Below are positions 27,783 to 62,849 of a DNA stretch of 64,000 nt, piece after piece. Both the position numbers and the translations under genes were made by a program. This DNA comes from Siphonodentalium dalli. Its lineage: Eukaryota > Mollusca > Scaphopoda > Gadilida > Siphonodentaliidae. The notes beneath the pieces were generated by a model that was not told where the DNA came from, ran no database searches, and saw nothing but the letters and a program-made list of their open reading frames with translations. The stretch lies in NCBI GenBank assembly GCA_032622095.1, contig CP136062.1:17921739-17985738 (forward strand). The letters run 5' to 3'. The stretch's first letter is position 1. Each line of letters opens with the position of its first letter.

Positions 27783-27863
27783 CTGAAAATAAAAGAATCA
27801 GTCAATTCACTGTCTGCATCTGCTAACAGAATAGAGGGCAAGTGTGGATATAGAGTGCCTGAC

Positions 27864-32015: not shown

Positions 32016-34756
32016 GCCCTCATCTATACTATGCATTACCATGCTTATCCCCTCATCTATAATATGCATTACCATGCTTACCCCTCATCTATAATATTCA
32101 TTACCATACTTACCCCCCATCTATACTATTCATTACCATACTTACCCCCTCATCTATACTATTCATTACCATACTTACCCCCTCATCTATACTATTCATT
32201 ACCATACTTACCCCCTCATCTATACTATTCATTACCATGCTTACACCTCATATATAATATTCATTACCATGCTTACCCCCTCATCTATAATATTCATTAC
32301 CATGCTTACCCCATCATCTATAATATTCATTACCATGCTTACCCCCTCATATATACTATTCATTACCATACTTACCCCCCCTCTATACTATTCATTACCA
32401 TACTTACCCCCTCATCTATACTATTCATTACCATACTTACCCCCTCATCTATACTATTCATTACCATACTTACCCCCTCATCTATACTATTCATTACCAT
32501 GCTTACACCTCATATATAATATTCATTACCATGCTTACCCCCTCATCTATAATATTCATTACCATGCTTACCCCATCATCTATAATATTCATTACCATGC
32601 TTACCCCCTCATATATACTATTCATTACCATACTTACCCCCCCCCCCCTCTATACTATTCATTACCATACTTACCCCCTCATCTATACTATTCATTACCA
32701 TACTTACCCCCTCATCTATACTATTCATTACCATACTTACCCCCTCATATATACTATTCATTATCATGCTTACCCCTCATCTATACTATGCATTACCATG
32801 CTTACCCCCTCATCTATACTGTTCATTACTATACTTACCCCCTCATATATACTATTCATTACCATGCTTACCCCCTCATCTATACTATTCATTACCATGC
32901 TTACCCCTCATCTATACTATGCATTACCATGCTTACCCCTCATCTATACTATTCATTACCATACTTACCCCCTCATATATACTATTCATTACCATGCTTA
33001 CCCCCTCATATATACTATTCATTACCATGCGTACCCCCTCATCTATACTATTCATTACCATACTTACCCCATCATATATACTATTCATTACCATGCTTAC
33101 CCCTCATATATAATATTCATTACCATGCTTACCTCTCATATATAATATTCATTACCATGCTTACCCACTCATCTATACTATTCATTACCATGCTTACCCA
33201 CTCATCTATACTATTCATTACCATGCTCACCCCTCATTTATAATATTCATTACCATACTTACCCCCTCATCTATAATATTCATTACCATGCTTACCCATC
33301 ATATATACTATTCATTACCATGCTTACCCCCTCATCTATAATATTCATTACCATAATTACCCCCTCATCTATAATATTCATTACCATGCTTACCCCCATC
33401 AATATTATTCATTACCATACTTACCCCCTCATCGATAATATTAATTACCATACTTACCCCCTCATCTATACTATTCATTACCATACTTACCCCTCATCTA
33501 TACTATTCATTACCATGCTTACCCCCTCATCTATAATATTCATTACCATGCTTACCCCTCATCTATAATATTCATTACCATACTTACCCCCTCATTTATA
33601 CTATTCATTACCATGCTTACACCTCATACATAATATTCATTACCATACTTACCCCTCATCTATACTATTCATTACCATGCTTACCCATTCATCTATACTA
33701 TTCATTACCATGCTTACCCCTCATCTATATGTGCATTACCATACTTACCCCCTCATCTATAATATTCATTACCATGCTTACCCCTCATATATACCATGCA
33801 TTACCATGATTACCCCCTCATCTATAAATTCATTACCATGCTTACCCCTCATCTATAATATTCATTACCATACTTACCCCCTCATCTATAATATTCATTA
33901 CCATACTTACCCCCTCATCTATACTATTCATTGTCATGCTTACCCCTCATCTATACTATGCATTACCATGCTTATCCCCTCATCTATAATATTCATTACC
34001 ATGCTTACCCCTCATCTATAATATTCATTACCATACTTACCCCTCATCTATAATATTCATTACCATGCTTACCCCCTCATCTATACTATTCATTACCATA
34101 CTTACCCCATCATATATACTATTCATTACCATACTTACCCCCTCATCTATAATATTCATTACCATGCTTACCCCTCATCTATAATATTCATTGCCATAAT
34201 TACCCCATATCTATAATATTCATTACCATGCTTACCCCCCCCCATCTATAATATTCATTACCATGCTTACCCCTCGTCTATAATATTCATTACCATACTT
34301 ACCCCCTCATCTATAATATTAATCACAATGCTTACCCTCATCTATAATATTCATTACCATACTTACCCCCTCATCTATAATATTCATAACATGCTTACCC
34401 CCTCATCTATACTATTCATTACCATGCTTACCCCTCATCTATAATATTCATTGCCATAATTACCCCTCATCTATAATATTCATTACCATGCTTACCCCTC
34501 ATCTATAATATTCATTACCATGCTTACCCCACATCTATAATATTAATTACCACGCTTACCCCACATCTATAATATTCATTACAACACTTACCCCATCATC
34601 TATAATATGCATTACCATACTTACCCCATCATCTATAATATTCATTACCATACTTACCCCATCATCTATAATATTCATTACCATACTTACCCCCTCATCT
34701 ATAATATTCATTACCATACTTACCCCCTCATCTATAATATTCATTACCATGCTTAC
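32016..34756. repeat. 33-bp minisatellite, about 83 units, carrying a 5' splice-site consensus per unit
   Basis: Units such as CATTACCATACTTACCCCCT plus CATCTATACTATT, length 32-34. Read on the minus strand each unit contains GGTAAGTATGG or GGTAAGCATGG, a near-perfect 5' splice donor, within TATAGATGAG...ATGGTAATGAAT. The array ends at 34756, precisely at the donor of the candidate exon at 34757-34877, whose tail matches the unit. Because the period is a multiple of three, all frames stay open for long stretches (a 324-codon one at 32269-33243); these repeat an 11-residue motif and are not genes. Confidence 0.95.
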
Positions 34757-34877
34757 CTCTCATCTATAGCTCTGACAGCTCCTTCATTTTGACAATTTAC
34801 TTCATTTATTCCAATTGTAGAATCAGGAATATTTGCGCTCTGTGTCTCATCGTCTGACCCATCGTCTGTACTTTCAG
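34757..34877 (-). CDS. Candidate internal exon encoding an acidic linker (possible TRIM-gene exon)
   Basis: On the minus strand an acceptor (CTTTTACATAG) and a good donor (GAGAG, then GTAAGC) bound 121 bp: two bases, 39 open codons, two bases. The peptide is acidic and polar, starting ESTDDGSDDETQSANIPD, as expected for a linker after a coiled coil. The TRIM exon at 44954-46089 ends with one extra base, which this exon's first two bases complete. It ends with two extra bases, which the segment at 27601-27782 can complete. Reading past the donor meets TAA at once. Splice signals and frame are seen; membership of the TRIM gene is inference and phase agreement has a one-in-three chance each time. 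Confidence 0.4.
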
Positions 34878-44808: not shown

Positions 44809-44953
44809 AAGAGTGTTCTTTTTTAATGAAAACATTTCAGAAACTTTTCTTGAAAAACATGAAAACTTTACTAACCACAAATATTATTGTTTTGTCCTAC
44901 TGAAAACTACAGTTCGCAGTTTGCACAGATTGACTTGTAAGTTGTATACTCAC

Positions 44954-46089
44954 CCACTCTCTGTTTTCGTTCATATATGGTCTCTGTGTTCTTCAGATTC
45001 CCAAGGTTCTCTATATAGGACTTGAAATCTGCAAAGTTGCTAGTTGTCTCAAAACTAAATTCTGCTCTCGATTTGAGTTCTTTTTCGATGTTTGTATCAA
45101 GCAAATTGTTCATTTTTGTCATCAGTTCTTGAGAAATATCAAGTGCTAATGAATGATCAGGACATGTCAAAACTGATGAAGCATAATTTAGATGTGTTGC
45201 TACATTCATGTTCCGCTGAGCAAGCTCCGTCATTTGTTTATCAAGGATGCTCTTCTTTGTGCCTGACAGCAGCCTCACGTCTTCTATAAGTTTATTCTCC
45301 TGCTTCATGAGTGGTTCTTGGCATGATGTGAATATATTACTTATTTCTTGTTCAACGCTCTTTTGTTTTTCATCAATAGAACGGTACTCAGCCTCGATAT
45401 CATTGACAGCCTTCTGGACGTCTCTCTTCTCATTATCTAACTTCACATGCTTGTCTTCTATCGATGTTTTGTACGGTGAGAATGCCTCTAACTCTTCCTG
45501 GATATGATGTCCTTTATTCGAATGATCAATAGTAGCACACCGCATACAAATAAGAATCTTACAATCTGTACAGAACATATCTTTCGAATAATCCTCATGC
45601 TTTGGTTTGGAACATTTGATCTTAGGATAAAAGAAGCTCTTAAGATCATTGGGATTGAGGGATGTTAGTGAGTGGATGGTGTGAGATCTGCAAACAACAT
45701 CCGATTTATGTTTGTTCATACAATCGCTACATAATAAAACATTACGGCAGTCAGAACAAACAAATTCAGCCTTCTTATTGGGGCATCCCGCACATTTCAC
45801 ATCATCAGGGCTACACTCGATTGTTTTCAACTTGCCATGAGATAAATAGAAGCTGTCCGTTGGTAAATGTTCGACGTGATTTGTGGCGGTCATCTTAGTA
45901 CACAGTCGGATAGCACACATGACTTCCTTATTCCCCCTTGGTACACACTTAGCCAAACATTTCTCGCAGAAAACATGAAAACAGTCGAGTCTCTTCGGAA
46001 GTAATACGTCACTTAGGTATCTCCGACACAGACTGCACTGACCGTTCTCCAGTCGGCTCTCATATACATCAAACTCAAGGAGCTCAAAA
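44954..46089 (-). CDS. TRIM-family E3 ligase exon: RING, two B-boxes, coiled coil (partial gene)
   Basis: The 1136-bp exon encodes 378 codons. RING: CSLC at residue 18, then C36, H38, C41, C44 and a final pair near 58 and 63 (C-x2-C, C-x-H-x2-C-x2-C). B-box 1 spans about 99-136 (CAGC, CSDC, CSDC, then two histidines). B-box 2 spans about 159-195 (CSKPKH, CTDC, CMRC, DHSNKGHH). A coiled coil with heptad-like charged sequence runs from about 204 to 334. Order and spacing are those of TRIM proteins, which are ubiquitin ligases. The acceptor is CTTTCAG at the start and the donor is GTGAGT at the end; with no in-frame ATG before the RING, the start codon must lie in an upstream exon to the right. 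The acceptor phase requires that exon to end with two extra bases. The C-terminal domain is not in this exon, so the TRIM subclass is unknown. Reading past the donor adds 15 residues before a stop. Confidence 0.9.
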
Positions 46090-46348: not shown

Positions 46349-46349
46349 A

Positions 46350-46964
46350 GGAGAGAATACAGACATACCTGGTAGAAGAGTGGAGGGGAGAATACAGACA
46401 TACCTGATAGAAGAGTGGAGGAGAGGATGCAGACATACCTGGTACAAGAGTGGAGAAGAGAATGCAGACATACCTGGTAGAAGAGTGGAGGGGAGAATAC
46501 AGACATACCTGGTACAAGATTGGAGGAGAAAAGAGTGAAGGAAAGAATACAGACATATCTGGTAGAAGAGTGAAGGAGAGAATACAGACATACCTGATAG
46601 AAGAGTGGAGGGGAGAATACAGACATACCTGGTTCAAGAGTGGAGAAGAGAATGCAGACATACCTGGTACAAGAGTGAAGGTGAGAACACAGACATACCT
46701 GGTAGAAGAGTGGAGGGGAGAATACAGACATACCTGGTACAAGAGTGCAGAAGAGAATGCAGACATACATGTACCTGGTACAAGAGTGGAGGAGAGAAGA
46801 GTGAAGGAAAAATACAGACATATCTGGTAGAAGAGTGAAGGAGAGAATGCAGACATAATTGGTAAAATAGTGGAGGAGAGGATGCAGACATACCTGGTAG
46901 AAGAGTGGAGGAGAGGGTACAGACATACCTGGTAGAATAGTGGAGGAGAGAATACAGGCATACC
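46350..46964. repeat. 35-bp minisatellite, about 17 units, carrying a 5' splice-site consensus per unit
   Basis: AGACATACCT recurs at 46361, 46396, 46431 and on. On the minus strand units read CCAG then GTATGTCTGTATTC, a consensus donor (CAG/GTATGT). The right-most unit is CCCCAG/GTATGCCTG. The open frames on both strands here (up to 253 codons) follow the repeat and are not genes. It begins inside the truncated foldback MITE. Confidence 0.93.
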
Positions 46965-47290
46965 TGGGGACATGACAATCTGCTGGATGGAATGGAATAT
47001 GGAATAGAACGACAAACTGCAGAACAAAATTTCAAATTGCGTGGAATGGCCAATATCTTGAGGAATACAGCACATAGAGCGCTCCTTTTGGAGTCTAACG
47101 AAAAGCCGATATTCGCCCTAGCCACACATTTTAACCCGCCACTGACTGGACACCAGAAGTTGTCGAAATCATGGCCGTGGATCAGCATGGAACAGCTGTA
47201 GAAATGCATTTTTACAGCGATAACGCTATGCCCACAAGTAAACTTGGTATTAAAATGAAGTTTATCATCTATTGCTCAACAAAATTCTAT
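46965..47290. other. Short unique segment between two repeats; possible but unproven exon
   Basis: On the minus strand an ATG at 47209 opens a frame of about 80 codons that reaches CCCCAG/GTATGC at the array edge. That end is in phase 0, whereas the TRIM exon needs an upstream exon ending with two extra bases, so it does not join it. The only frame with the right phase has a stop (TGA) and no start. The plus strand also has a 69-codon frame. I see no recognised domain. Confidence 0.3.
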
Positions 47291-47299
47291 TAATTCGAG

Positions 47300-47440
47300 C
47301 GAACTACAATTATTGTCTCTTTTACAGAAAAATCATGCTTCCTTGTCACCTATGATAGTTTTTTCTTAGTCACATAGTGATAGTGAACGATAAAATGAGA
47401 CTAACTCGCCATTAGATGTTGAGGTAAAAATAATTCAGGT

Positions 47441-47475
<35 letters not shown>

Positions 47476-47960
47476 GATAAACTGGGTGATTTTCAATAAA
47501 AAAACATCTGAACAATAATGTCTCTGCCGAAGAAAAGACATGCTTCCTTGCCACCAATGATAGTTTTTCTAAGTCACATAGTCATAGTGAATGATAAAAT
47601 GAGACTATCTCGCCAATAGATGTTAAGGTATGGAAAATCCAGGCGGGGGGGGGAAGATAAACTAGGTAAATTCCAATGAAAATTCTTCGAACTATAATTA
47701 TTGTCTCTTTTACAGAAAAATCATGCTTCCTTGTCACCTATGATAGTTTTTCTTAGTCACATAGTGATAGTGAACGATAAAATGAGACTAACTCGCCATT
47801 AGATGTTGAGGTAAAAATAATTCAGGCGGGGGGGGGGGGGGGGGGGAAGATAAACTGGGTGATTTTCAATAAAAAAAAATCTGAACAATAATGTCTCTGC
47901 CGAAGAAAAGACATGCTTCCTTGCCACCAATGATAGTTTTTCTAAGTCACATAGTCATAG
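47300..47960. repeat. Tandem repeat units each ending in a poly-G tract
   Basis: Text around GACATGCTTCCTTGCCACCA and CATAGTGATAGTGAACGATA recurs with offsets near 371-388 bp in two alternating sub-types. Each ends in G homopolymer followed by AGATAAACT: 34 G at 47441-47474, 9 G at 47645-47653 and 19 G at 47828-47846. TTGTCTCTTTTACAG recurs before one sub-type. Confidence 0.88.
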
Positions 47961-47961
47961 T

Positions 47962-48180
47962 GAATGATACAAGACAGTCAATGACTGTGGGGTCGCTCAC
48001 CAGACTGCAAAGACTGATAAGACTGGGACTCTGGAGACCAAAACAGTCAGCTCTTTTCATAATCACTTTAAAAGAAGTAGATTTAAACAGGATATGTGGC
48101 TAGAGAGACTTCAAGTATGTAGCTTGGTGAAAATCCACCTTGAAATTGCCAACTGTACACTACTGATCACCCCCCTCCTC
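47962..48180. repeat. Dispersed fragment with a conserved open frame (copy 1 of 3)
   Basis: Begins ACAAGACAGTCAATGACTGT and contains GGTCGCTCACCAGACTGCAA and CATAATCACTTTAAAAGAAG. It matches 57486-57680 and 59494-59610. The same frame is open in all three copies, with shared peptide pieces VAHQTAKTDKT and FHNHFKRSR. It may be a mobilised exon or a non-coding SINE-like piece. Confidence 0.6.
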
Positions 48181-48429
48181 CAGCTCAACAAGTCCCCTCC
48201 CGACCGGGCTCCAGACTCCCAAGTCTTAGGTTCGAATTTCACAACCGACACCTCAAACTTTCTCAATTGTTGGAAATTTCCAATCTCACAAGCGCCTTTT
48301 TCTAAAACCATTTAAACATGTTTGAAGCCCAATTATCCATGGACCCAAAACACAATACATGTATGTCAGACCAATCAGTCAGGTGGTTCCAAGGTAGATG
48401 TTTTAATGAATTTGGTATTTCGATGATTT

Positions 48430-48960
48430 TATTGGACACAAAAGTGTTAACTCCCCACAGCCTGCCATTTCTTGACAGGTTGACCTCATTTTAACAAATC
48501 TGAATCTCAGTCACTAAAGGATCCTCCTGATTCCTCCATACTATATGTATTAAAGCTAAATAGTCCAAACTCTCTTGAGAAGACATTTTAAGAATTACTA
48601 TAGAGACATATAGTTATGTCCCTGGTCCCACCCTATTTAACCTGGTGACCCCATCTGAATAAATTTGAATCCCAGACACCAAAGAACCCTTCATACATAT
48701 CATAAATATCAGTAAAATAGACCTGATGGTCCTTGTGAAGGAAGCATATTAAGAGGGAAACTGTCCTTCGCTTGGCCCCTATTTGACCAGGTGACCCCAT
48801 TAAAAAAAATCTGAATTGCAGTCAAGGAAGAACATTCCATTCTATATAAGCCAACTAGTTCTTGCAAACATATTTTAAGAATTACTATGTAGTGAAATAG
48901 TTAAGTCTCTTGCTCTGCCCTTATTTGACTTTGTGATCCCATTTTCACAAATCTGATAAG
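48430..48960. repeat. Dispersed about 150-bp repeat ('TTATGTCCCTGG' family)
   Basis: Units carry GTCCCTGGTCCCACCC, TGACCCCAT, CAAATCTGAA, CACCAAAGAACC and AAGAATTACTATAG. The same family is at 50690-51115, 57990-58450, 59630-60140, 60170-60580 and 62850-63340. No coding potential. Confidence 0.8.
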
Positions 48961-49297
48961 GACAAGAATTAACTTCCCCAGTTGAAGTTGGTGATATTCA
49001 CCCATTGGGCACCTCATTTATGAATTTTATCTTCTGCAAATTAGGGGATATAGAAACTTCCTAGAAGGGAAATTTAACTAACAACAATGTAAATTTGATA
49101 CTATAGATACTTCCCAGAAGATGAGGCCTAAGCAGAATGAGGTCTCCAGAGGGTGAATTTGGTGATGCTAGCCTGCTGTGCGGGATAGCATCACAAAAAG
49201 CGTGTCTGTTTCTACATTGTGCATGCCTGGCCTCAAGCAACACAATGTATTATACAATCAAGCCTTGAAATAGTGTGATAGTGTGTCTGTCATTTGC

Positions 49298-49360
49298 AGA
49301 ATGAGGTCCCCAGAGGGTGAATTTAGTGACGCTAAATTCACCCTCTGGGGACCTCATTCT
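49298..49360. mobile_element. 63-bp foldback MITE, minimal form
   Basis: Arms of 29 bp, AGAATGAGGTCCCCAGAGGG outward and its complement, with GAATTTAG/CTAAATTC at the loop and only five bases (TGACG) between. The longer relatives at 49722-49810 and 50066-50149 keep the same arms with a loop containing GCTAGCCTGCTG-like text. Confidence 0.88.
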
Positions 49361-49721
49361 GATAAGGCCCTCAACTGCTATGGAAGATCTAGAAGAAAAT
49401 TGAATTTCCCCAGTTGAAGTTGGTGATGTTCACCCATTGGGCCCCTCAATTATGAATTTTATCTTCTGCAAATTAGGGGATATAGAAACTTCCTAGAAGG
49501 GAAATTTAACTAACAACAATGTAAATTTGATACTATAGATACTTCCCAGAAGATGAGGCCTAAGCAGAATGAGGTCTCCAGATGGTGAATTTGGTGATGC
49601 TAGCCCGCTGCGTGGGATAGCATCACTAAAAGCATGTCTGTTCCTACATTGTGCATGTCTGGCCTCAAGCAACACAATGTATTATACAATCAAGCCTTGA
49701 AATAGTCTGTCTGTTATTTGC

Positions 49722-49810
49722 AGAATGAGGTCCCCAGAGGGTGAATTTAGTGACGCTATCCTGCACAGCGGGCTAGTATCACTAAATTCACCCTCTGGGG
49801 ACCTCATTCT
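49722..49810. mobile_element. Foldback MITE, full form
   Basis: AGAATGAGGTCCCCAGAGGG at the left mirrors CCCTCTGGGGACCTCATTCT at the right, with GCTATCCTGCACAGCGGGCT in the loop. Same family as 27864-27970. Confidence 0.85.
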
Positions 49811-50065
49811 GATAAGGCCCTCAACTGCTATGGAAGACCTAGAATAAGATGGAAGTTCCCCAGTTGAAGTTGGTGATGTTCACCCATTGAGCACCTCAAT
49901 CATGAATTTTATCTTCTGCAAATTAGGGGATATATAAACTTCCTAGAAGGGAAATTTAACTAACAACAAAGTAAATTTGATACTATAGATACTTCACAGA
50001 AGATGAGGCCTAAGCAGAATGAGATCTTGAGACTCTAGATACTTTCCAGAAGATGAGGCCTAAGC

Positions 50066-50149
50066 AGAATAAGGTTCTCAGAGGGTGTATTTGGTTATGC
50101 TAGCCTGCTGTGTGGAGCAACATAAATCACCCTCTGGGAACCTCATTCT
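50066..50149. mobile_element. Foldback MITE, diverged copy
   Basis: AGAATAAGGTTCTCAGAGGG and CCCTCTGGGAACCTCATTCT arms; both have changed in step at one position (CCCC to TCTC/GGGA-like), with a loop containing GCTAGCCTGCTG. Confidence 0.8.
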
Positions 50150-50150
50150 G

Positions 50151-50689
50151 CTAATGCCAGACTCTCTTAATTCAAACTTGGAGAAAATGAAAATAATCTG
50201 ATTTTAATGACCACTGAGTGATAATGTAAACAACAAGGGTGCTTCATTGATAACACCATTAATCTCATTTAAATTACAAATGACATGAATTACACTCTCT
50301 GGGGATGGAAAGCACAGCAGATGTTATCTACCCATCTGCCAGTTGTATAAACATGGGTCCATCAGAGCACATGGGTGGCTTGGTGTAGTAGAGAATACAT
50401 ATGATTAAAGCAATTTACTGAACATTTCTGTACATCTGTCTGTTCCTGATTTCTCCCAAACCCCTGATTTCAACCAAATATAGTGGAGTGACTAGAGGTA
50501 CCTCCCCTCCCCTCCCAAAGATGTAGTCATAGGTTCTTCAAAATTTTAATGAGTTTTTTTTTATTTTATTTAAAAATAAAATATTTTATTTAATAAAAAA
50601 AAATTATTTATTAAAAATAAAATATATATATATATATATTTTTTTGGTTAAATTGAGAAATAAGTTAAATTAAAAAAAAAATTAAAAAA
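50151..50689. other. Unique and low-complexity sequence, no gene
   Basis: Unique text to about 50530, then an A/T tract (TTTATTTAAAAATAAA, a (TA)n run near 50625). Nothing coding seen. Confidence 0.5.
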
Positions 50690-51115
50690 TTCAGATTTAT
50701 GTCCATAGCCCCACCCACATTTGACCCAGTGACCTCATTTGAACAAATCTGAACCACAGTCACCCAAGGTACCCTCATACCAAATATGAACCCATTCGGC
50801 CTGACAACTTCAGAAAAGAAGTCGTTTTAAGAATTACTATGTGGAAAAATAGTTATGGTCCTGACATCAAAACTATTTGACTTGATTACCTCATTTGAAC
50901 AAATCTGAATGAGAGTCACCTAGGGAACATCCACACCAAATATGAACCAATTTGGTATGATGGTTTCAGAGGAGAAGATGTTTTTAAAAAAGTTGACGGA
51001 CGGACAGACGGACAGACGGACAGACGGACAGACGGCTCGACAGACGGACGGACGGACGACGGACGAGGAGTGATGACTATAGCTCCACCGGAGACTTTGT
51101 CTCAGGTGAGCTAAA
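50690..51115. mobile_element. Helitron-like 3' end with 'TTATGTCC' repeats and GACG microsatellite
   Basis: Two about 150-bp units are followed by (GACGGACA)n at 50996-51062, GGAGTGATGACTATAGCTCC and a hairpin CACCGGAGAC-TTT-GTCTCAGGTG, then AGCTAA. A terminal hairpin followed by CTRR (here CTAA) is the Helitron 3' signature. The opposite end is not identified. Confidence 0.55.
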
Positions 51116-51119
51116 AATG

Positions 51120-51280
51120 AGAGGTATGGAAAATTCAGGCGGGGGGGAAGATGATCAGGGCGGGGGGGAGATAACCTAGGTTATCTTCCCCCCCGGGGGG
51201 GAAGATAAACTAGGTAAAACCAGTTTATCTTCCCCCCCCCCCCAGGGGGGGGAAGATGCGCAGAGGGGGGGAAGATGTCG
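51120..51280. repeat. Inverted poly-G/poly-C units (two foldbacks)
   Basis: GGGGGGGAGATAACCTAGG and its complement form a palindrome at about 51161-51194. It is followed by a second, GGGGGGGAAGATAAACTAGG to CCAGTTTATCTTCCCCCCC. Same family as the poly-G repeats at 47300-47960, here in alternating orientation. Confidence 0.85.
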
Positions 51281-51286
51281 TAGCAC

Positions 51287-51410
51287 ACCGGCACACATAT
51301 AGCATGCACCATGCACACGCTGTATAATGTGGCCGTCCCTCAAAAGGTTCACGTTTTGTATTGAGTAATTCTATATATCTTACCATTTTAATCCATCGTG
51401 GATTTATACG
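51287..51410. repeat. 124-bp direct repeat, left copy
   Basis: ACCGGCACACATATAGCATG to CATCGTGGATTTATAC is repeated in the same orientation at 54474-54597 with about ten differences. The pair brackets the large inverted repeat and its gene. Confidence 0.88.
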
Positions 51411-51411
51411 T

Positions 51412-52865
51412 CCAGTTTTAAGTGTATGTGGTACTGAAGTGAACTAACGTACTACAGATAAAATTGGTTGTGCAGAGCATTGCGCTGAAGATATTTTAAG
51501 CTATCAAATTTTAAGTATACCTACTTAAATCCATAAAACATTCCTATTAAAGCAATTTCGAAAGAGAAGTTCTGTTGCGGATTTCACCGATAGGTAGTCC
51601 CCCTGACGTAAGAAATCTCAATTGACCAATCAAAACGTTTAATTCAATAAAATTAACACATTTAGGAATACCTACCACGTTTGTTTAAAAGAGTGCGAAA
51701 AGCCGATTCGTTATGCGATATTATTTCTTCCACGCCGCGGGAAATTCAAATGAAAGTGTCAATGACACTGTAGCTCAACTTGGAAAGGGAATAATTTAAT
51801 GTGTTACTGACGATGGAGTGATTAGGAATGTGGAAAGTTGAATGTCTAATACTAGTTTATCAACATGAAAAGATATATATATACATGTATATAAAAGTAA
51901 AATCTAAGATGGTTGCTGGCAGCTACAAATGTATGTTTTCCAACAATTCAAAAACATTTGATAGCTTTAGTCATGCAAAGAGTAGAATCCAAAATGGCCA
52001 CTGGCAGCCATGTTTTAATGCCGAATAACCCCAAAATGACTCGTTCCCATCTACATGTCAATTTCAACAGCCATGACAAATTTTATGATGATCAGACTAA
52101 AGGTACGACCTGTAGCCCGTGCTAAAGGATTTAGTCATACAAAGAGTAAAATCCAAGATGGCAGCTGGCGGTCATGTTTTTTGGCCGAATGACCCAAAAA
52201 TGACTCGTTCCCATCTACATGTCATTGTTAACATCGATGACAAATTTTATGATGATCCAACCAAAGGTACGACCTGTAGCCCGTGTCAAAGGTTTAGTCA
52301 TGCAAAGAGTAAAATCTAAGATGGCTGCCAGTGGCCATGTTTTTTGGCCGAATGACCCCAAAATTACTCGTTCCCATCTACATGTCAATATTAACATCCA
52401 TGACAAATTTCATGATAATAAGACGAAAAGTACGGCCTGTAGCCCGTGCTAATGGATTGAATTTTGATATCCAAGATGGCCACTGGCGGCCATGTTTTTC
52501 TTCCGAATTACACCAAAATGACTCGTTCCCATCTACATGTCAATGTCAACATCCATGACAAATTTCATAATAATCGGACCAAAGGTACGAACTGTAGCCC
52601 GTGCTAAAGGAAATTGTTGACGAATCATGCACACACACACGCACACACGCACGACGGATACCAAGCCATGGCAATAGCTCAAACTTTACAAAGTAAAGTT
52701 GAGCTAATAATTGACATGGATTTAGCATTTAAAAGGTGATTTATCACGAAATCTATTTGAATTATCACATTAGTATTCATAGACGAACGTATGACGCTAT
52801 ATGCGTTATACATTAACTCTAATCGTTTTTTGTATTAAAAATTAGCTTGTTCAACAGTGGGAATT
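51412..52865. repeat. Left arm of a large inverted repeat (about 500 bp plus a HINE insertion)
   Basis: CCAGTTTTAAGTGTATGTGG through CTTGTTCAACAGTGGGAATT is the reverse complement, with scattered changes, of 53813-54292. The HINE at 51750-52706 is present only in this arm. The inner end includes the first eight bases of the exon starting at 52858. The arm also holds TGACGTA and a CCAAT box (GACCAATCA). Confidence 0.92.
51750..52706 (-). mobile_element. HINE 4, complete, with an intact-site comparison
   Basis: Ends ATGAAAGTGTCAATGACACT, GTAGCTCAACTTGG and AAAGTAAAGTTGAGCTA; about five internal units. The uninterrupted partner arm (53974-53990) shows the target as TCAATTATTTGAA on the opposite strand, so the element sits between T and T with no duplication. 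An AAT duplication is the alternative reading. Near its right end are (AC)n, ACGACGGATACC and CCATGGCAATAGCTCAAACT. Confidence 0.82.
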
Positions 52866-53636
52866 CTGTTGCAAACTATACACAGATGAGGATAACGCAG
52901 TTAATCTGTGGCTCGGTTGCGAGGCGGATATGGTCCCGAAATGTCCAAACCGGGCCCACGCAATTTGCGCAGGTATCGAAGGGGATGCGGGGAAAATAAA
53001 AGAATTGATTACTTTCAAATTTCCATTCCATAGGACGATCCCCAGGATCCAAGCAAAGGAGGTATGTATCTAATTTGCTAAAGTAATATTGCTAATTATA
53101 GTATAACTATGGTGAATCTGTTATTGCAAATCCAATACTTGCACTCAAACCATGTTTCACCCAATTGTGCTTTGTCGTTGTTGTTCGACTTGTTTATGAC
53201 TTTGACAAGCTGACGCTGCGATGGGACCATGGATTTGATTACTGTATTGTGTGAGACCCTGGTATCTGTTTCGAGTGTATTCACGAATAGTGCATTGAAA
53301 TACTAATTTGATCATCTGTTGTTCACAAATTACTTTCTTTCAGCAGAAACCGAAGTTCCGATGGCCGAGTCAGACTCTCCTGGGGGCAATGTTCTTGCGG
53401 TGGCATCTTCCACGTGCATGGTTCCAGCGAGATGCAGAGGTGGTCGTGGTAGAGGTCGTGGTGCCGATAATATTATGGATGAGCCAGGCACGTCTGATGG
53501 CAATGTGCTTGCGGTGGCACTTCCTACATGTGCGGCTCCCACGAAAGGCAGGGGTAGTCGTGGTAGACCTAAAGGTCATGGTGGTAACATATGTGCTAAA
53601 AGAGGACGGGGTCACAGAAGTCAGGAATATAATTGA
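52858..53636 (+). CDS. Small two-exon gene piece: PHD-like zinc finger plus AT-hook/RG-rich C-terminus
   Basis: Exon 52858-53065 follows an acceptor (TTGTTCAACAG) and is open only in one frame. It shows WLGC, then KC, RAH, and AIC: the C-x7-C-x4-H-x2-C half of a PHD-type finger. The second exon starts at 53344 after TTTCTTTCAG and encodes RGGRGRGRG, a second related unit with GRGSRGRPKGHGG (AT-hook-like RGRP) and a tandem GNVLAVA motif. It ends in TGA overlapping AATAAA. Joining needs the weaker donor (GTAT/GTATCT); the stronger donor GAG/GTATGT leads into another long open frame without recognisable composition. PHD-like fingers often end pogo/Jerky-type transposases, so this may be a transposase C-terminus, but the 5' part is missing because the inverted-repeat arm begins right there. 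Function not assigned. Confidence 0.5.
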
Positions 53637-53641
53637 ATAAA
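53636..53641 (+). terminator. Polyadenylation signal AATAAA
   Basis: It overlaps the stop codon by one base and is followed by a GT-rich stretch (GATGTTTGTGTCTGTCCCGTG). This supports a transcript ending here on the plus strand. Confidence 0.5.
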
Positions 53642-53812
53642 ATGTCAAGTGTTCAATCGGATGTTTGTGTCTGTCCCGTGTCACAATTGTCATTGCTTGT
53701 GTTTCTTATGTAAAATAAGAAATTCCAGTTTTTACAGGTTGTACAGATAATATATTCTCGTGATGCGTTACATGATAGAGTTCCAGATTTGCTCATTCTA
53801 TGGTACCAAATT

Positions 53813-54292
53813 AATTCCCACTGTTGAACAAGCTAATTTTTAATACAAAAAACGATTAGAGTTAATGAATAACGCATATAGCGTCATATGTTCGTGTATG
53901 AGTAATACTAATGTGATAATTCAAATAGATTTCGTAATAAATCACCTTTAAATGCGAAATCCATGTCAATTATTTGAATTTCCCGCGGTGTGGAAGAAAT
54001 AATATCTCATAACGAATCGGCTTTCCGTACTTTTTTAAACAAACGTGGTAGGTATTCCTTAATGTGTTCATTTTATTGAATCAATTGAGATTTCTTACGT
54101 CAGGGGGACTACCTGTCGGTGAAATCCGCAACAGAACTTCTCTTTCGAAATTGCTTTAATAGGAATGTTTTATGGATTTAAGTAGGTATACTTAAATTGA
54201 TAGCTTAAAATATCTTCAGCGCAACGCTCTGCACAACCAATTTTATCGGTAGTACGTTAGTTCACTTCAGTACCACATACACTTAAAACTGG
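53813..54292. repeat. Right arm of the large inverted repeat
   Basis: AATTCCCACTGTTGAACAAG to CACTTAAAACTGG, complement of the left arm without the HINE. It carries an antisense copy of the intron end and first bases of the PHD-like exon. Confidence 0.92.
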
Positions 54293-54473
54293 CTCTGCAA
54301 TGGCATGCGCTGTCTCATATTTCCAACGCAAATAAACAAAACATGAATATGATATAGTCATATTCCACTATAATAGTCAAATATAGCCATAATAGCGGAA
54401 TTCAGGATGTGCCAGACCTGATTATAAACAACCTGTAATTGGCATGTTTCGTCCCATACCGTTATATAGTGAT

Positions 54474-54597
54474 ACCGGCACACATATAAGCGCGCACCAT
54501 GCACACGCTGTATAATGTGGCCATCCCTCAAACGGTTCATGTTTTGTATTGAGTAATTCTATATATCTTACCATTTTAATCCATCGTGGATTTATAC
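54474..54597. repeat. 124-bp direct repeat, right copy
   Basis: Matches 51287-51410 in the same orientation (GCACCATGCACACGCTGTAT, TTGTATTGAGTAATTCTATA). It is followed at once by the 544-bp duplication. Confidence 0.88.
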
Positions 54598-54599
54598 TG

Positions 54600-55690
54600 G
54601 TTTCGTTTGCTCAGCCGGGTAACATTTGTCATCAACACATAATATTTTGCCACCAAAACCTAGCGTGAACCAAGCGGTGTCTTGATATCAATCTGTTCGA
54701 TTGTGACATAGCCAGAGGTCGCTGTTCTGGATTTAACATGTAAGTGCTATGATAATCTCGTAATCTCGGTAATACTATTTGGTCTACGCTATAATTACTT
54801 CCGCCACCGAAAAATAATCTTCCGATACAATTAATATATATTATGGTATTCATATCTCGTTAAACCACATATCGTCGTAATATTTCTTATCTTAGGGCGA
54901 GATGATTCATACATTAAGAACTTTTTATCATCCACAATTTATAAGCGTGCTAGTATAGCTGTCCGTTAAGATTTCAGTCAACCCAAGGTCAATCACTTTT
55001 CACAAATAAGCTTGTTATACCGACATGGCGACAAGTGCGGCCATATGGATGTAACATATGCGAGAATGTTGTATTTTAATCAACGCAACATAATGGACAA
55101 TACTCTCTTATATATTCACTATTCACATATAGTCTTACTCTCGATTTCATTTGCTCAGCCAGGTAACATTTGTCATCAACACATAATCTTTTGCCACCAA
55201 AACCTAGCGTGAACCAAGCGGTGTCATGACATCAATCCGTTCGATTGTGACATAGCCAGAGGTCGCTGTTCTGGATTTAATCGGTACATGTAAGTGCTAT
55301 GATAATCTCCGTAATAATATTTTGTCTACGCTATACTCACATCTGCCACAGATTTCGGAGAAAAATAATCTTCCAATACAATTAATATATATATTACGGT
55401 TTTCATATTTCGTTAAACCACATATCGTCATATTTTTTCTTATCTCAAGGCGAGATATATATTAAACACTTTTTATTACCCACTGTGCATAAGCGTGCTA
55501 GCATAAGTATCCGTTAACATTTCAGTCAACCCAAAGTCAATGACTTTTCACAAACGAGCTTGTTATATGGACATGGCGAAAAAATTGCGGCCATATGGAT
55601 GTAATATGTGCGAGAACATTGTATTTTAATCAGTGCAACATAATGGACAATACTCTCTTATATATTCACTATTCATATATATATATATGA
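54600..55690. repeat. 544-bp tandem duplication
   Basis: TTTGCTCAGCC at 54606 and 55150; shared text includes AACCTAGCGTGAACCAAGCG and GACATAGCCAGAGGTCGCTG. Copies differ by substitutions and short indels, so the event is older than the 2376-bp one. No coding frame is kept in both. Confidence 0.9.
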
Positions 55691-56340
55691 AATTACTCTC
55701 GAATATGCAATATATGTAATATATATTATAGTTTTGTCGGAAAATACATATGAAAACTGCTTCATAACATCCAGCCTTACGGTTGTGATATACATATATA
55801 TGCACTAGTAGCCAGTGTTATGCACTGTTATAGACATATGACTATATAATGATCACATGTGAATGATGTATAATTGTACATACAATGTAGACATAGTACT
55901 CCTGTTCTCTAGTGCTGAAGGTATAACTCGTAATGTAGACTATTTATGAAACAAATTATACATTAAATGGATACGCAGAATGAAGTTACATATATCGCAC
56001 CCGTGTGATCGATGATGGTCGTCACTAAACAATATCTCACATGCGTGAGATTATTATGGTAATCCAATAATATGCATGCATAGACTAATTATAATACCAC
56101 ATTAAACACATGTTTGGATGCAGAACACAAATTTACATATATCGCATCCGTGTGATCGCTGGTGGGCGTCACCAATGAATATCTCACATGAGTGAGGTTT
56201 TTAATGACAATATTCACTATGTATAGTATGCTTCGATAATTTAGACGATGCACATGTTTGATGCACTAAACAGATGTGTGTATCCATCATCAGTATAGCC
56301 ATTGATTGACGGGCGTTACTAAGGAATAATATGTGATGTG
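55691..56340. repeat. AT-rich sequence with three diverged about 140-bp repeats
   Basis: TTACATATATCGCA(C/T)CCGTGTGATCG with GTCACTAA/GTCACCAATG and ATCTCACATG(C/A)GTGAG recurs at about 55985 and 56135, with a weaker third near 56275. A (TA)n tract lies near 55678-55690. Confidence 0.65.
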
Positions 56341-56348
56341 TATAAATA
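56341..56348 (+). promoter_or_regulatory. TATA-box-like TATAAATA upstream of a small ORF
   Basis: Lies 128 bp before the ATG at 56469. There is no independent support for transcription. Confidence 0.2.
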
Positions 56349-56468
56349 AATCATAGGCCCTACCTATTGTTTTTCAATATAACGCCGATATGACGTGTTA
56401 AACGCTTATTCTTTCACGCAAATAAATCTGACAGATAGCAGAGTCCTTTACAAAACGTTCCTACAACC

Positions 56469-56780
56469 ATGCATGCGAGCCCATCTGCACTGGACAACCA
56501 GCTCATTATCAAGTATATCATGCTACAACATTCAATTGCATATGGGACTCGTTTATCAGCTGATTTGAATAACATAATTTGTCGAATGTGTCAGTTGAGC
56601 ATGAGCCGAGACGAATTTGACTACATCTCGTTCAGGAAACGAAATAGTCTCCTCTGGACATCAATTCAGACACATATACACGCGATATTTACTTTAGTTA
56701 TAATCAGACGGGAAATAGGCAACATAGATGGTTGGTTGTTGGTCACAAAGAAGCACTGTTGTATATTTTTCACAAGGTGA
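56469..56780 (+). CDS. Unrecognised 103-codon frame, possible first exon
   Basis: Starts at ATG after ACAACC, in unique sequence with no repeat explanation. The peptide has a mixed, protein-like composition (for example LSADLNNIICRMCQLSMSRD) and reaches CACAAG/GTGATT, a possible donor, just before the in-frame stop. I recognise no family. It could be part of a mobile element because the surroundings are duplicated and repetitive, or chance. Confidence 0.28.
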   Translation: MHASPSALDNQLIIKYIMLQHSIAYGTRLSADLNNIICRMCQLSMSRDEFDYISFRKRNSLLWTSIQTHIHAIFTLVIIRREIGNIDGWLLVTKKHCCIFFTR

Positions 56781-57480
56781 TTGCAGGAACATTTGACTAA
56801 AGGAATCCGAAAAAATCGACGACAAAATACTCAATCGTGTTGCTAAATGCCGATACATTGTGAAAAAATATGTGCCAAAATTAAGATCCGGGCTGTTTCT
56901 GCAGCCTATTTCTACTTCAATGCTTTAACGAAATATACACAATTGTATCAAATTCAACCCGGCAAATATCGAGGTGTTGAGCGAATTTAACTGCTGCTAT
57001 ACCAACTGTTCCATTCTGTCAAAATTAATTTATAACCGTATTTTTCTATTTTTCCTAACCAGAAATTGCAACATAAAAATAAAGATGCGCGGTTGTATTG
57101 TCATAGAAGCGCGGTTGGCAACACAGATGCGCGTTTTCGATTGGTCGGTGTGTTTAGATTTCTCGATGAATACAACAAGTATTAGGTACCAAATGACGCA
57201 ATGGAATACTACACATTTGGTTTTAGCTACACTATGAATGTTTTAGTATGAATACTGTAATGGCGAACACGCACACACGCGCCGATGAAAATAGCTAAAA
57301 ATAAATTCAATGTTTACAATAACAGGATCGATTGCAGGTGATATATTCCATATAGTGGGGCGTTTAGTATATCAAAATGTAGGATTAGACACAGGGAATG
57401 TAATTTTGTCCAAGTGTGTCCACTCTGCAGTGAATTTGTTGCAGAAAATCACTCCAAGAAAGAGCGCTACTTTATCTAAC
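56781..57480. other. Unique sequence without a recognised gene
   Basis: Contains GCGCGGTTG repeats and a CCAAT box (GATTGGTCGG) near 57080-57150. An ATG at 57310 opens a 123-codon frame that runs into the dispersed fragment at 57486-57680. Confidence 0.4.
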
Positions 57481-57485
57481 AAAAC

Positions 57486-57680
57486 AGTCAAAGACTGTGA
57501 GGTCGCTCACCAGACTGCAAAGACTGATAAGACTGTGACTCTGGATACCACAACAGTCAGAACTTTTCATAATCACTTTAAAAGAAGTAGATCTAAACAG
57601 GATAGGTGGCTAGAGAGGCTTGATGTATGTAGATCGGTGAATATCTACCTCGAAATTACCAGCTTCTCACTACTGATCTG
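57486..57680 (+). repeat. Dispersed fragment with a conserved open frame (copy 2 of 3)
   Basis: Matches 47962-48180. In frame it encodes CEVAHQTAKTDKTVTLDTTT and FHNHFKRSRSKQDRWLERL. It is the longest open version, joined upstream to 59 further open codons. Confidence 0.6.
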
Positions 57681-57989
57681 AGATAAATAGACATGGTGGT
57701 TCTTTCAAAGAACACTTTTCAAGTTTGCCAATTATGTTCTAGTGAATTGGGGATGTGTTAAATGTCCTTATGAAAGATTTGAACAATACATATGATAGAT
57801 TGTTGTTGTAATTGGGAATTAATGACCTCTTACAGATCTACAGGGATTTTTTATAAAAATGTCAGATTTCACTTGACATGTGTAGGCATACCCCACATAC
57901 AGTTAGAGCCAAAGTAAATGCTTCTTATTAATGATGCTCTGTCAAGGGTGGCAGAAGCAGTGAACTTGAGTAAAGAGCCAATAATTATT

Positions 57990-58450
57990 TTTAAATATTT
58001 TTTGGAGTTATGTCCCTAGCCCCACCCACATATGACCCAGTGACCTCATTTGAACAAATCTGAACCCCAGTCACCCAAGGATCCTTCATACCAAATATAA
58101 ACCCATTTGGCCTGGTGGTATTTGAGAAGAGGTTTAAAAGAATTACTATGGAGGAAAAGAGTTATGGCCTTGGCTTCGCAACTTTGATCCAGTGACCTCA
58201 TTTGAACAAATCTGAACCCCAGTCATGCAAGGATCCTCAAAAGAATTACTATGGAGGGAAAGAGTTATGGTCCTGGCTTTGCAACTATTTGACCCAGTGA
58301 CCTCATTTGAACAAATCTGAATATGAGTCGCCTAGGAAACATCCACACCAAATATGAACCCATTCGGTCTTATGGTTCCAGAGGAGAAGAAGTTTAAAGA
58401 ATTATTGACGGATGGACAGATGGATGGATATGGAAGGAGTGATGACTATA
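57990..58450. repeat. 'TTATGTCCCTGG' repeat units with GGATGGA tail
   Basis: Units carry CCCCACCCACATATGACCCA, GTGACCTCATTTGAACAAAT and GAGTTATGGCC. The tail TTGACGGATGGACAGATGGA and GGAGTGATGACTATAGCTAA is the 3' end seen at 51115. A/T low-complexity follows to about 58570. Confidence 0.8.
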
Positions 58451-58659
58451 GCTAAAAATAAATAAAAGGTTAAATGAAAAAAAAATTCTGAATTCATTTT
58501 AAATTTAATTTTTTTTCATTCATTTTTTTTTAAATTGAGCAAAGATTTCAATTTAACAACTTTTATTTAAAAAGAGTTATGTCCTTGGTATGATTTAATT
58601 TGGATAAGTGGTGGTTAAGAAGAAAATATTAAACCACCAAGCCTGAATTTAGTGTGTCT

Positions 58660-59495
58660 GACATTTGCAGAATAAGGTGAATTTAAGGACACTATTCGGA
58701 AAGGCTGGCCAGCATCACCAATTCATCTGATTAGGCCTCAATGGCCAATAGAAACATAGGATTGAAGTTCTACAGTTGAAGTTGGTGATGCACACCCATT
58801 GAACACCTCAATTATGCATTTTATCTTCTGCAAAGTAGGGGGACATTGAAACTGAACAGTGGGATCGAAAAAGTCAAAAAGTAACTAAAACAAAATTTGA
58901 TACTTAGGATACTTCCCAGAAGATGAGGCCTAAACAGAATTAGGCCCCTGGAGGGTGTATTTGGTGATGCTAGCCTGCTGTACCGGGTAGCAACACTAAA
59001 TTCACCCTCTGGGGACCACATTCTGCAAATGTCAGACACACTATGTCCATGCAGGCTTGAGGAAATGAACAATAGACTTTTCCTATTTATTCTTGCAGAA
59101 TAGGTGTTTATCTAAATGCCATAAACCTGTTTCCACAGGTGGATTAACTTAATATTGCACAGAGAACTAGAATACAGTGCCATCAATCAAAGCTTGACCG
59201 ATGGTAAACATGTCTGCAGGCAAGCAGTCTCTCCCCATAGTATCAAGTGTCCCCAGTGATAAATTGGCTTCCTCAATTATACAGCCTTCAGCAGTGTAAT
59301 GTTCTCTCTAAAATTGATATGGCTTGGCAATTAGAGGTGTGAATTATAAAGGGTCATAACTCTGTTAAAATATATGGGATCAAACCCATATTTGAACTTG
59401 ATCTGAAAAAGGTGTCAACAATTCATATATCAAATTTGGTGTCGATCAGATAAAACATGTTTGATTCATCCTGTCTTGAATGAATTCTATATAAC
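58660..59495. repeat. Dispersed segment duplicated at 62190-62705
   Basis: Order of parts: 430-bp-type unit, foldback MITE (58936-59024), unique-looking text with GATAAATTGGCTT, and GGGTCATAACTCTGTTAAAA with CAAATTTGGTGTCGATCAGA. The same order recurs 3.2 kb downstream. Confidence 0.8.
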
Positions 59496-59610
59496 AAGAC
59501 AGTCAATGACTGTGGGGTCGCTCACCAGACTGCAAAGACTGATAAGACTGGGACTCTGGAGACCACAACAGTCAGAACTTTTCATAATCACTTTAAAAGA
59601 AGTAGATATC
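59494..59610 (+). repeat. Dispersed fragment with a conserved open frame (copy 3 of 3)
   Basis: Begins ACAAGACAGTCAATGACTGT, nearly identical to 47962 onward, and ends at AAGAAGTAGAT. The frame stays open through FHNHFKRSR and then stops. Confidence 0.6.
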
Positions 59611-59629
59611 TAAAGAGTTAAATCTAAAA

Positions 59630-60580
59630 CAAAAAAATTGGAGTTATGTCCCTGGCCCCGCCAACATTTGACCCAGTGACCTGATTTGAACAAATCTGAA
59701 CCCCAGTCACCCAAGGATCCTTCATACCAAATATGAACCCATATAGCCTGATGGTATTTGAGAAGAAGTCACTTTAAGAATACTATGGAGGGAAAGAGTT
59801 ATGGCCCTGGCTTCGCAACTATTTCAAGCGAACTCATTTGAACAAATCTGAATGTGAGTCACCTAGGGAACATCCACACCAAATATGAAACCATTCGGTC
59901 TTATTGTTCTGAAGATGTTTAAAAGAATTACTATGGTGGGAAAGAGTTATGGCCCTGGCTTCGCAACTATTTGACCCAGTGACCGCATTTGAAAAAATCT
60001 GAATGAGAATCACCTAGGGAACATCCACACCAAATATGAACCCATTTGGTCTTATGGTTCCAGAGGAGAAGATGTTCAAATAATTGTTGTCGGACGGATG
60101 GACGGACAGACGATGGACGGACGAGGAGTGATGACTATAGCTCCACCAGAGCACGGGTAGGGTGGCTGGTTGGTAATTAAATCTCTTATCCCGCCCCTAT
60201 TTGAACAAACGTGAATCCCCATCTATGAGATCCATTCATTTGGTAATTTCAGACATTAGATTTTAAGAGTTGAACTGAACTGATTTTCCTAAAATGACCC
60301 CAAATCTGAAAAAATCTAAACCCCAGTCACCGAAGGACCATCCATACCAAACATAATCTAAATAGTCCAGATGGTTCTTGAGAAGAAATTGTTTTAAGAA
60401 TTACTATGGAAGGAAAGAGTTATGGCCCTGACTTCTCACCTATTTGACCTGATGAACTCATTTGAACAAATCTGAATGTGAGTCACCTGGGGGACATCCA
60501 CACCTAAATATATAAACCCATTTGGTCTTTAATATGTATCTGGAGAAGAAAACAATTGATGGACGGATAGAGACATAATG
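59630..60580. repeat. 'TTATGTCCCTGG' repeat units, two successive elements
   Basis: GAGTTATG at 59641, 59796 and 59944 marks units of about 150 bp. The first element ends in GGACGGATGGACGGACAG and GGAGTGATGACTATAGCTCC near 60145; the second runs to a GGACGGATAGAG-type tail near 60580. Confidence 0.82.
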
Positions 60581-60756
60581 ACAGATGGATGGATGGGAGA
60601 ACAGTCTGACATAGAGACTGACAAATTCAATCCAATATACCCCCCCCCCCCCAAGTTTTCTTTGCAAAATCAGGGTATAATGAGTTCAACTGGATACTGG
60701 TGGTTAAGAACATAATATTCGAACAGACAAGCCTGAACAAATTGTCTGACATTTGC

Positions 60757-60845
60757 AGAATGAGGTCCCCAAAGGGTGAATTTACTGACACAATCCTGCA
60801 ATGCGGGCTAGCATCACCAAATTCACCCTCTGGGGACCTCATTCT
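60757..60845. mobile_element. Foldback MITE copy
   Basis: AGAATGAGGTCCCCAAAGGG and CCCTCTGGGGACCTCATTCT arms, loop with ATGCGGGCTAGCATCACC. A poly-C run preceded by AATCCAATATA lies just upstream. Confidence 0.85.
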
Positions 60846-61046
60846 GTGTAGGTCTCAACTGCTATGGGACACATAGCATTAGATTGAAGTTCTCCAGTTA
60901 AAGTTGGTGATGTGCACCCATTGGGCACCTCAATTATGCATTTTATATTCACAAATTAGGGGATATAGAAACTAAACAGAAGGGCTAAAGTAAGTAAAAA
61001 TGTCAATTTAATTGCCTATATACTTCCCAGAAGATGAGGCCTAAGC

Positions 61047-61135
61047 AGAATGAGGACCCTGGCTAGTGTATTTGGTGATGCTAGACTGCTGTGCAGGGTA
61101 GCATAACTAAATTCACCCTCTGGGGACCTCATTCT
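61047..61135. mobile_element. Foldback MITE copy
   Basis: AGAATGAGGACCCTGGCTAG and CCCTCTGGGGACCTCATTCT arms; further diverged copies at 61291-61375 and 61687-61775. A second AATCCAATATA plus poly-C run follows at about 61160. Confidence 0.8.
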
Positions 61136-61424
61136 GCAAATGCCAGATAGAAGACAAATTTAATCCAATATATACCCCCCCCCCCCCCATTTTTTTTGGA
61201 ATATTAGTCGTATGATTTCATCTGGATAAGTGGTGATTATAACAATAATATGAAATGGACAAACCTGAATTTAGTATGTCTGACATTTGCAGAATTAGGT
61301 CCCAAAAATGTGGATTTAATGACAATATTCTGTAAGGCAGGCTAGCATCACCAAATTCATCCTCAATCTGATTAGGCCTCAATGGCCAATAAAACCAAGG
61401 AACAGATTGAAGTCCTACAGTAAG

Positions 61425-61625
61425 TGTTGAAGTTGGTGAGCACCTCAATTATGCATTTTATCTTCTGCAAATTAGGGGGACATTGAAACTGAACAGGTGG
61501 AAAAAAGTGACTAAATCAATGAAGTCCTACAGTTGAAGTTGGTGATACACACCCATTGAGCACCTCAATTATGCATTTTATTTTCTGCAAATTAGGGGGA
61601 CATTGAAACTGAACAGGTGGAAAAA
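61425..61625. repeat. Short tandem duplication of about 95 bp
   Basis: CACCTCAATTATGCATTTTA then AATTAGGGGGACATTGAAAC and TGAACAGGTGGAAAAA occurs twice in direct succession. Confidence 0.8.
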
Positions 61626-62189
61626 GTGACTAAATCAAACTGTCAATTTGATACTTAGGATACTTCCCAGAAGATGAGGACTAAGCAGAATTAGGTCCCT
61701 GGCGGGTGTATTTGGTGATGCTAGCATGCTGTATGGGGTAGCAACACTAAATTCACCATCTGGGGACCTCACTATGTAAATGTCAGACACACTATTTCCA
61801 GACTTGAAGAAATCAAAGCCATTCACAGTATCATTGAATGTCAGTCATCACCTAACATTGAATGGAAGCACCAGTTTGTTGTTAAATTGCTACAGATATG
61901 TTTAGATTAGAATAATACATGTCATCTGGCCAGTTTATATAATTAATGACCTGTACCTTTACAGATATATATGCATCTGTGGTGAGAAGAGGTATTAAAT
62001 TGAGAGGTGATATGGCTTGGAAGGGATGTTGGTTTATGTCAGGGTTGGGCCTGGGCCATGTGGGATGGGGTGGGTGGGGGAGGGTGGAATGTTTCCATAA
62101 TTTCATTAAAGAGTAAAGTTTCATAACTCTGCAGATGTTATATATAATGGTGTCACTTTTTTTCAAATTTTAAAACATGTTTAAAAAAA

Positions 62190-62705
62190 ATTGTCCCAGA
62201 AGATGAGGCCTAAGCAGAATAAGGTAATTGAGGGTGTATTTGGTGATGCTAGCCTGCTGTATGGGGTAGCAACACTAAATTCACCATCTGGGGACTTCAT
62301 TCTGCAAATGTCAGACACACTATGTCCAGGCTTGGAGAAATGAACAATGGACTATTCATTGTAGACTCTGGTAGAATAGTTGTTTAGCTAATGTCATGTG
62401 GTGTAATGACAGATGGTAAACTGGTCTGAAGCAAGCAGTCTGAAGCAAGAGTATTGGGTGACCACACTATGATAAATTGGCTTTTTCAATAATACAGGCT
62501 TCAGTGTTCTCTTAAAAATTAATAGTGCATAGCAAAGAGGTCTGAATTATAAAGGGCCATAACTCTGTTAAAATATATCGGATGAAACCCATATTTTAAC
62601 TTGATCTGTATATAAGTGTCAAAAATTCATATACCAAATTTGGTGTTGATCAGATGAAAAATGTTTGAGTAATCCTGTCTTGGATGAATTCTATATCAAA
62701 ACAAG
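62190..62705. repeat. Second copy of the segment at 58660-59495
   Basis: Contains the foldback at 62216-62303 and GGGCCATAACTCTGTTAAAA, CAAATTTGGTGTTGATCAGA, CCTGTCTTGGATGAATTCTA in the same order as the first copy, with more indels. Confidence 0.8.
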
Positions 62706-62849
62706 AGTGGAAGGGGTTAAATAAACAATACCAAAATCCATACAGATGAAGAACATGCTAAGAAAAATCTAGGTAAGAAATATGAGGCTGTGATGTGTCC
62801 TAAACAAAATTAAAGGTCAAAATGCAAAAATTAATTTTTTTGTTTTTAA

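Follow-up and report, generated by a model that had tools for sequence, protein, structure and literature searches.

The closest described counterpart of the locus presented here is the variable number tandem repeat (VNTR) in intron 18 of the human ABCA7 gene. According to the accessible text of its report (PMC5954066), the 25-bp unit of this array flanks exon 18 and includes its donor. Use of the next donor keeps one unit in the transcript, resulting in a frameshift and a premature stop. Skipping of exon 19 rises with array length; the one-unit isoform is unchanged. Intron gain through tandem duplication of AGGT segments is described in the accessible part of another report (PMC4974935). In Caenorhabditis elegans, the intronic minisatellite CeRep25B is tied to alternative splicing and contains splicing-regulatory heptamers (PMC4039745, as far as its accessible text goes).

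The subject of our analysis is a stretch of 64,000 nucleotides from the scaphopod Siphonodentalium dalli (C2:17921739-17985738, in an assembly of 2.23 Gb in 9 contigs), referred to below as the window. Its minus strand carries part of a TRIM-type gene, two of whose exon-intron junctions appear to have been amplified into minisatellites. Three copies of this gene were found in the genome: A, located in the window, B and C. Coordinates of the features are collected in the table.

Exons of a TRIM-type gene

Exon 2 codes for most of the recognizable domains. Its N-terminal RING-like part (PF13445, 19.3 bits, under the cut-off of 25.2) matches the N-terminal parts of solved TRIM2, TRIM32 and TIF1-beta chains. 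Two stretches match B-boxes (PF00643, 29.9 bits, cut-off 24.1), and the coiled coil that follows them aligns, by sequence only, with chains of TRIM3 (residues 176-325) and TIF1-beta (residues 173-340). Exon 2 is under purifying selection, with dN/dS of 0.152, 0.163 and 0.137 in three pairs of copies. Its dS between the window copy and either B or C reaches 0.13-0.14, about ten times the divergence of the intron next to it (0.008-0.021), an excess that might stem from gene conversion.

Exon 2 ends in phase 1 and leaves over a single G. Exon 3, about 10 kb downstream, opens with CT and thus continues in frame (GCT GAA AGT...). Directly 5' of exon 3 the minus strand reads ...CTTTTACATAG, and the other edge of the exon reads GATGAGAG/GTAAGCATGG (AG/GTAAGC), just as the earlier note had described for the end of an exon-like segment. 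Its observation that the frame meets TAA at this first donor (...VRAIDER-stop) is likewise borne out, so any donor further downstream yields a truncated product. The encoded peptide, [A]ESTDDGSDDETQSANIPDSTIGINEVNCQNEGAVRAIDE(R), forms an acidic tail. When the whole minus strand of the window was scanned strictly for an AG acceptor with pyrimidines, a GTRAG donor, the proper phases and an open frame, exon 3 was the sole candidate. We infer that position 34757 is a splice site in use.

The coding sequence of exon 1, as read in copies B and C, starts with ATGGCGGCTAAC and runs up to ACCAG/GTATGT in phase 2, which fits exon 2. The phases of all three exons interlock: exon 1 leaves in phase 2, and exon 3 is entered in phase 1. 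Use of the first exon 1 donor in splicing has likely left a trace in the genome. Two intronless fragments in opposite orientations (L041 and L042, C3:60.2 Mb) have exon 1 fused to exon 2 at the predicted junction. They are probably processed copies of a TRIM transcript, whose source was a relative of the present gene (83% identity over 78-79 nt of exon 1 and leader).

The search for exon 4 gave nothing convincing, either by Pfam in the 9.8 kb that follow the window's array, in a further 20 kb below copy C (L020 and L021, much of it satellite) and in 10 kb below exon 3 of a sister paralog (L036), or by tblastx between paralogs. The Pfam scan left out window positions 1-22200, L013 below the array, L022, L023 and L024; matches at high-coverage positions were removed from the tblastx comparison between paralogs and from the tblastn search of paralog D described below. 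No C-terminal domain of the TRIM protein was present in the downstream stretches scanned. Several candidates were dropped. Pfam matches to DUP, WH_Egal and DUF2556 scored under the cut-off, and a YqaJ domain in L036 was attributed to a mobile element. An open frame of 108 amino acids (27590-27916, minus strand) is identical in the three copies; it was dismissed because the copies differ there by about 1% anyway.

Features of the TRIM-type gene and its arrays in the window
Feature	Position	Strand	Remarks
Exon 2 (1136 nt): RING-like, two B-boxes, coiled coil	44954..46089	minus	phase 2 in, phase 1 out
Exon 2 donor GTGAGT	44948..44953	minus	GTGAGA there in paralogs D, E and F
Exon 3 of the TRIM-type gene (121 nt)	34757..34877	minus	phase 1 in, phase 2 out
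Presumed true 5' splice site GTAAGC	34751..34756	minus	identical in copies A, B and C; matching edge of paralog D is GTAAGT
33-bp minisatellite, about 84 units	32017..34768	minus	each unit with 12-13 nt resembling the exon tail and a donor-like site
35-bp minisatellite of intron 1	46349..46967	minus	most units repeat CTTCTACCAG/GTATGT, like the exon 1 tail and donor
Stretch of about 23 kb parting exon 1 from its array (right part)	46967..64000		left end near C2:17991751, outside the window

Minisatellites at two junctions

The array behind exon 3 was delimited by Tandem Repeats Finder with a period of 33, 84.4 copies and 90% matches; wrap-around alignment of the window copy places 84-85 letters at each position of the unit. 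Its first 12 nt lie inside exon 3. It contains 76 GTAAG sites including the true donor, and 34 sites read GTAAGT. Many decoy donors are thus present, as had been claimed, and the estimate of about 80 is lowered to 75 with GTAAG. A generic donor matrix scores 69 of the decoys to within 2 bits of the true donor. On the same strand, 38.8 kb outside both the array and the satellites at 1-22200 hold 20 donor sites of such strength (0.5 per kb).

Exon 3 with its flank has three matches in the genome, with identities of 100, 97 and 96%. All 39 residues of its peptide are identical in the three copies, and copy C carries two synonymous changes; as the neighbouring DNA of the copies differs by a few per cent, this identity is weak evidence. 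The array begins 12 nt within exon 3 in all three copies. It comprises about 40 units in each of B and C, with 36 and 35 GTAAG sites including the true one, compared to 84 units in the window copy. At its far end the array of B and C decays into degenerate units. This end is absent from the window copy, apparently due to a deletion of about 350 bp.

A pattern of 30 bases of the unit, allowing up to 3 mismatches, was searched in the whole 2.2-Gb genome, with the reversed pattern as a control. It gave 86 matches, all within three loci, and the control none, so the array is not a product of chance. Each of these loci carries exon 3; an array without any exon, named in the earlier note as the case that would speak against an amplified junction, was not found in this genome.

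A second junction, overlooked in that note, is amplified in the same gene to judge from its sequence. In B and C (L012 and L014), a 35-bp minisatellite of 12.8 copies starts 8 nt within exon 1 and continues right behind its donor, with units that repeat ...TCTACCAG/GTATGT or /TTATGT. Such an overlap of 8 nt is present in two of four copies. Exon 1 of the window copy lies beyond the window (C2:17991799-17991898), about 23 kb off its array. The intervening stretch lies within the exon-1 array of the window copy and has no counterpart in B and C. Inverted repeats of about 340-370 bp (80% identity) form its ends, and it looks therefore like an insertion. The octamer CAGGTATG that flanks both ends occurs also in every intact unit of the array and thus does not prove target duplication. 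A partial fourth copy (L040) has its exon-1 array cut in the same manner as the window copy.

A 30-bp array devoid of donor consensus begins 35 nt after the exon 2 donor of B and C; it is missing from the window copy. All three known introns of B and C start with or near a minisatellite. Other repeats are abundant in the window as well. Positions 1-22171 consist of three abutting satellites with units of 162, 82 and 53 bp; the 53-bp satellite is present also below the array in B and C and, among the matches listed, extends through most of 30 kb of C. Tandem runs of a dispersed repeat with a length of about 163 bp (GACCCCAAAATGACTCGTTCCC...) occupy 30653-31491, 39802-41159 and 51966-52611, and this repeat seems to dominate the matches, among those listed, to the loci of B, C, D and E.

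Paralogs and the origin of the arrays

More distant relatives of the gene provide a view of the junction outside the three copies. Paralog D (C3:187.87 Mb) has an exon 2 with 64% identity to the window copy and, 4.4 kb below it, a candidate exon 3 in the same phases, which ends GACGG/GTAAGTTTTC and contains no repeats. This candidate was first seen as a weak tblastn match (E 8.5), and the strict scan, devised after that match, found it as the only candidate with the same phases in 14.8 kb of D. Its peptide scores 29 against the window exon, compared to -1 for the best of 9 control candidates (138.6 kb) and 16 for the best of 60 shuffles. No array is present in D. The highest match to the unit within 5 kb, 20/33 at the junction, is near background given the 18-19/33 of three other paralogs. 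Homology of the candidate is counted against by the lack of an exon 3 in about 15 and 19 kb of paralogs E and F. A second copy of D's exon was not found, and by ordinary searches the peptides that exon 3 encodes in A, in D and in the sister paralogs were not linked to one another.

These sister TRIM paralogs (about 50% identity) yielded seven matches for exon 3. In all six aligned loci the exon end and GTATGT are alike, and two subgroups diverge after the donor. They leave exon 3 in phase 0, in contrast to phase 2 in the window gene. An array overlapping the exon is present at none of 12 donors of the paralogs outside the trio of A, B and C (site L032, which was not located, stands outside this count). 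It is present at all three exon-3 donors of the trio and at two of the four exon-1 donors of the trio and the partial fourth copy; at the other two, the array is interrupted after one unit. The array-free candidate edge of D suggests that the exon edge probably predates the array, a point that the earlier note had proposed to check at an orthologous locus. The central claim of that note, an amplified exon-intron junction, gains support from the phase fit, from the joint presence of exon and array in three of three copies and from the candidate edge of D.

We consider it probable that the arrays arose by neutral amplification of a junction-spanning duplication in the TRIM gene, which is spliced mainly at the first donor, some use of decoys truncating the product. 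A segment across the junction of exon 3 and intron 3, made up of 12-13 nt of exon tail and about 20 nt of intron, would have been duplicated in tandem and amplified, and this amplification would have preceded copying of the gene. As the first junction stayed intact, splicing at the first donor would leave the mRNA unchanged and the duplication would be nearly neutral. It could spread unseen while the first donor was in use, later growth taking place inside the intron. The junction of exon 1 would have followed the same course with its 35-bp unit. Most transcripts would use the donor closest to the exon and some the first few decoys, which would add steps of about 33 nt. Every product of a decoy would hold the TAA of the first donor and so end ...AIDER, to be truncated or degraded.

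The main rival takes exon 3 as terminal. TAA in GGTAAG would then be a real stop, the protein would end AIDER, the array would belong to the 3' untranslated region, and its resemblance to donors would be incidental. The TAA is indeed in frame and in the same place in A, B, C and D, AATAAA or ATTAAA occurs 112-130 nt past the edge in D, L027, L028 and L029, and no later exon appeared in the stretches scanned. We nevertheless regard a terminal exon 3 as unlikely. A and D share AG or GG/GTAAG although only 23 of 43 bases agree around the edge, the sister paralogs carry the donor-like GTATGT with similarity falling beyond it, and the first AATAAA or ATTAAA comes in A as late as +4350, in B and C at about +1530. 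That the exon is a pseudo-exon beside an ordinary minisatellite, with no gene at all, is scarcely credible. Many arrays do occur in the window and those of the donor motif are as common as a control motif: AGGTAAGT, three times at minisatellite spacing, has 2014 matches genome-wide compared to 2199 for the reversed motif (overlapping matches, not arrays), and a genome-wide enrichment of donor-motif arrays was accordingly rejected. This reading conflicts with the phase fit, the TRIM exon under purifying selection, the exons of paralogs and the array at another junction of the gene.

Pairing with U1 bears on whether the array has a function. U1 genes, read from L037 and L038 (two of 42 U1 matches), start ATACTTACCTG. 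The U1 5' end pairs with the true donor at -9.6 kcal/mol and with each of the first five decoys at -12.2, which is also the best value among the downstream GT sites; 35 of these 244 sites equal or surpass the true donor in pairing. Some decoy use close to exon 3 is likely on this ground, and faithful use of the first donor becomes less certain. The array might be selected as a splicing regulator that holds U1 near the donor, shields the long intron from early polyadenylation or sets the truncated share. Low variation of the GTAAG positions in the window copy (0.019, compared to a mean of 0.079 for the others) points in the same direction, yet, ranked by low variation among 33 windows of five bases, GTAAG comes just third to fifth in the three copies. 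Five to six of the 33 are as low, and selection on decoy donors was not accepted for this reason. With no genome-wide enrichment either, we claim no special selection. The number of units differs twofold between copies, 7 of 13 sites in the exon-1 array of B (true donor counted) have TT in place of GT, and the one-unit decoy isoform of ABCA7 is unaffected by array length in the accessible text of PMC5954066, which argues against a simple length-dependent decoy switch. Selection as a regulator is, taken together, improbable indeed. A broader proposal, that junctions of this gene (exons 1 and 3) repeatedly become donor arrays and that the array behind exon 3, in which the best decoys pair with U1 more strongly than the true donor does, is a switch between full-length and truncated TRIM protein whose strength has diverged between copies, is in our view quite unlikely too.

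Comparison with described systems

Neutral amplification of a duplicated junction would represent a possible birth route of intron-edge minisatellites, masked by splicing at the first copy of the junction. Two such births in one gene suggest that the route may be general and little noticed. The locus also amounts to a natural experiment in donor choice by the spliceosome, which faces some 75 near-identical rivals of the true site; the gene copies carry 84 or about 40 units, and a paralog carries no array.

Domain order and matches to solved TRIM2, TRIM3 and TIF1-beta chains ally the protein with the TRIM family; contrary to that family, it has an acidic tail coded by exon 3 and no C-terminal domain in the downstream stretches scanned. 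With the AGGT-based intron gain (PMC4974935, accessible part) the locus shares tandem duplication of a sequence with a donor-like motif. No new intron is seen in the TRIM gene, however, and the donor edge exists without the array in D, if the exon of D is homologous. CeRep25B is an intronic minisatellite, as the TRIM array is presumed to be; the accessible text of PMC4039745 does not contain the word donor.

The similarity to ABCA7, as described in the accessible text of its report, goes further. The TRIM array directly flanks an exon and includes its predicted 5' splice site, and its units carry usable-looking donors. The ABCA7 array begins at the donor GT, in contrast to the TRIM array with its start 12 nt inside the exon. 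Further differences are the many TRIM decoys that outpair the true site for U1, the involvement of two junctions and the existence of a paralog with a likely single-copy state. For ABCA7, both splicing and the variation among people have been measured, whereas the TRIM locus is known from the sequence of one assembly, where paralogous copies differ in unit number. In the literature searched, which consisted mostly of papers outside subscription, we met no account of a gene with two such junctions. As far as its accessible description goes, the ABCA7 VNTR is a direct precedent, to which the TRIM locus adds the exon tail as a part of the repeat unit and two junctions in one gene.
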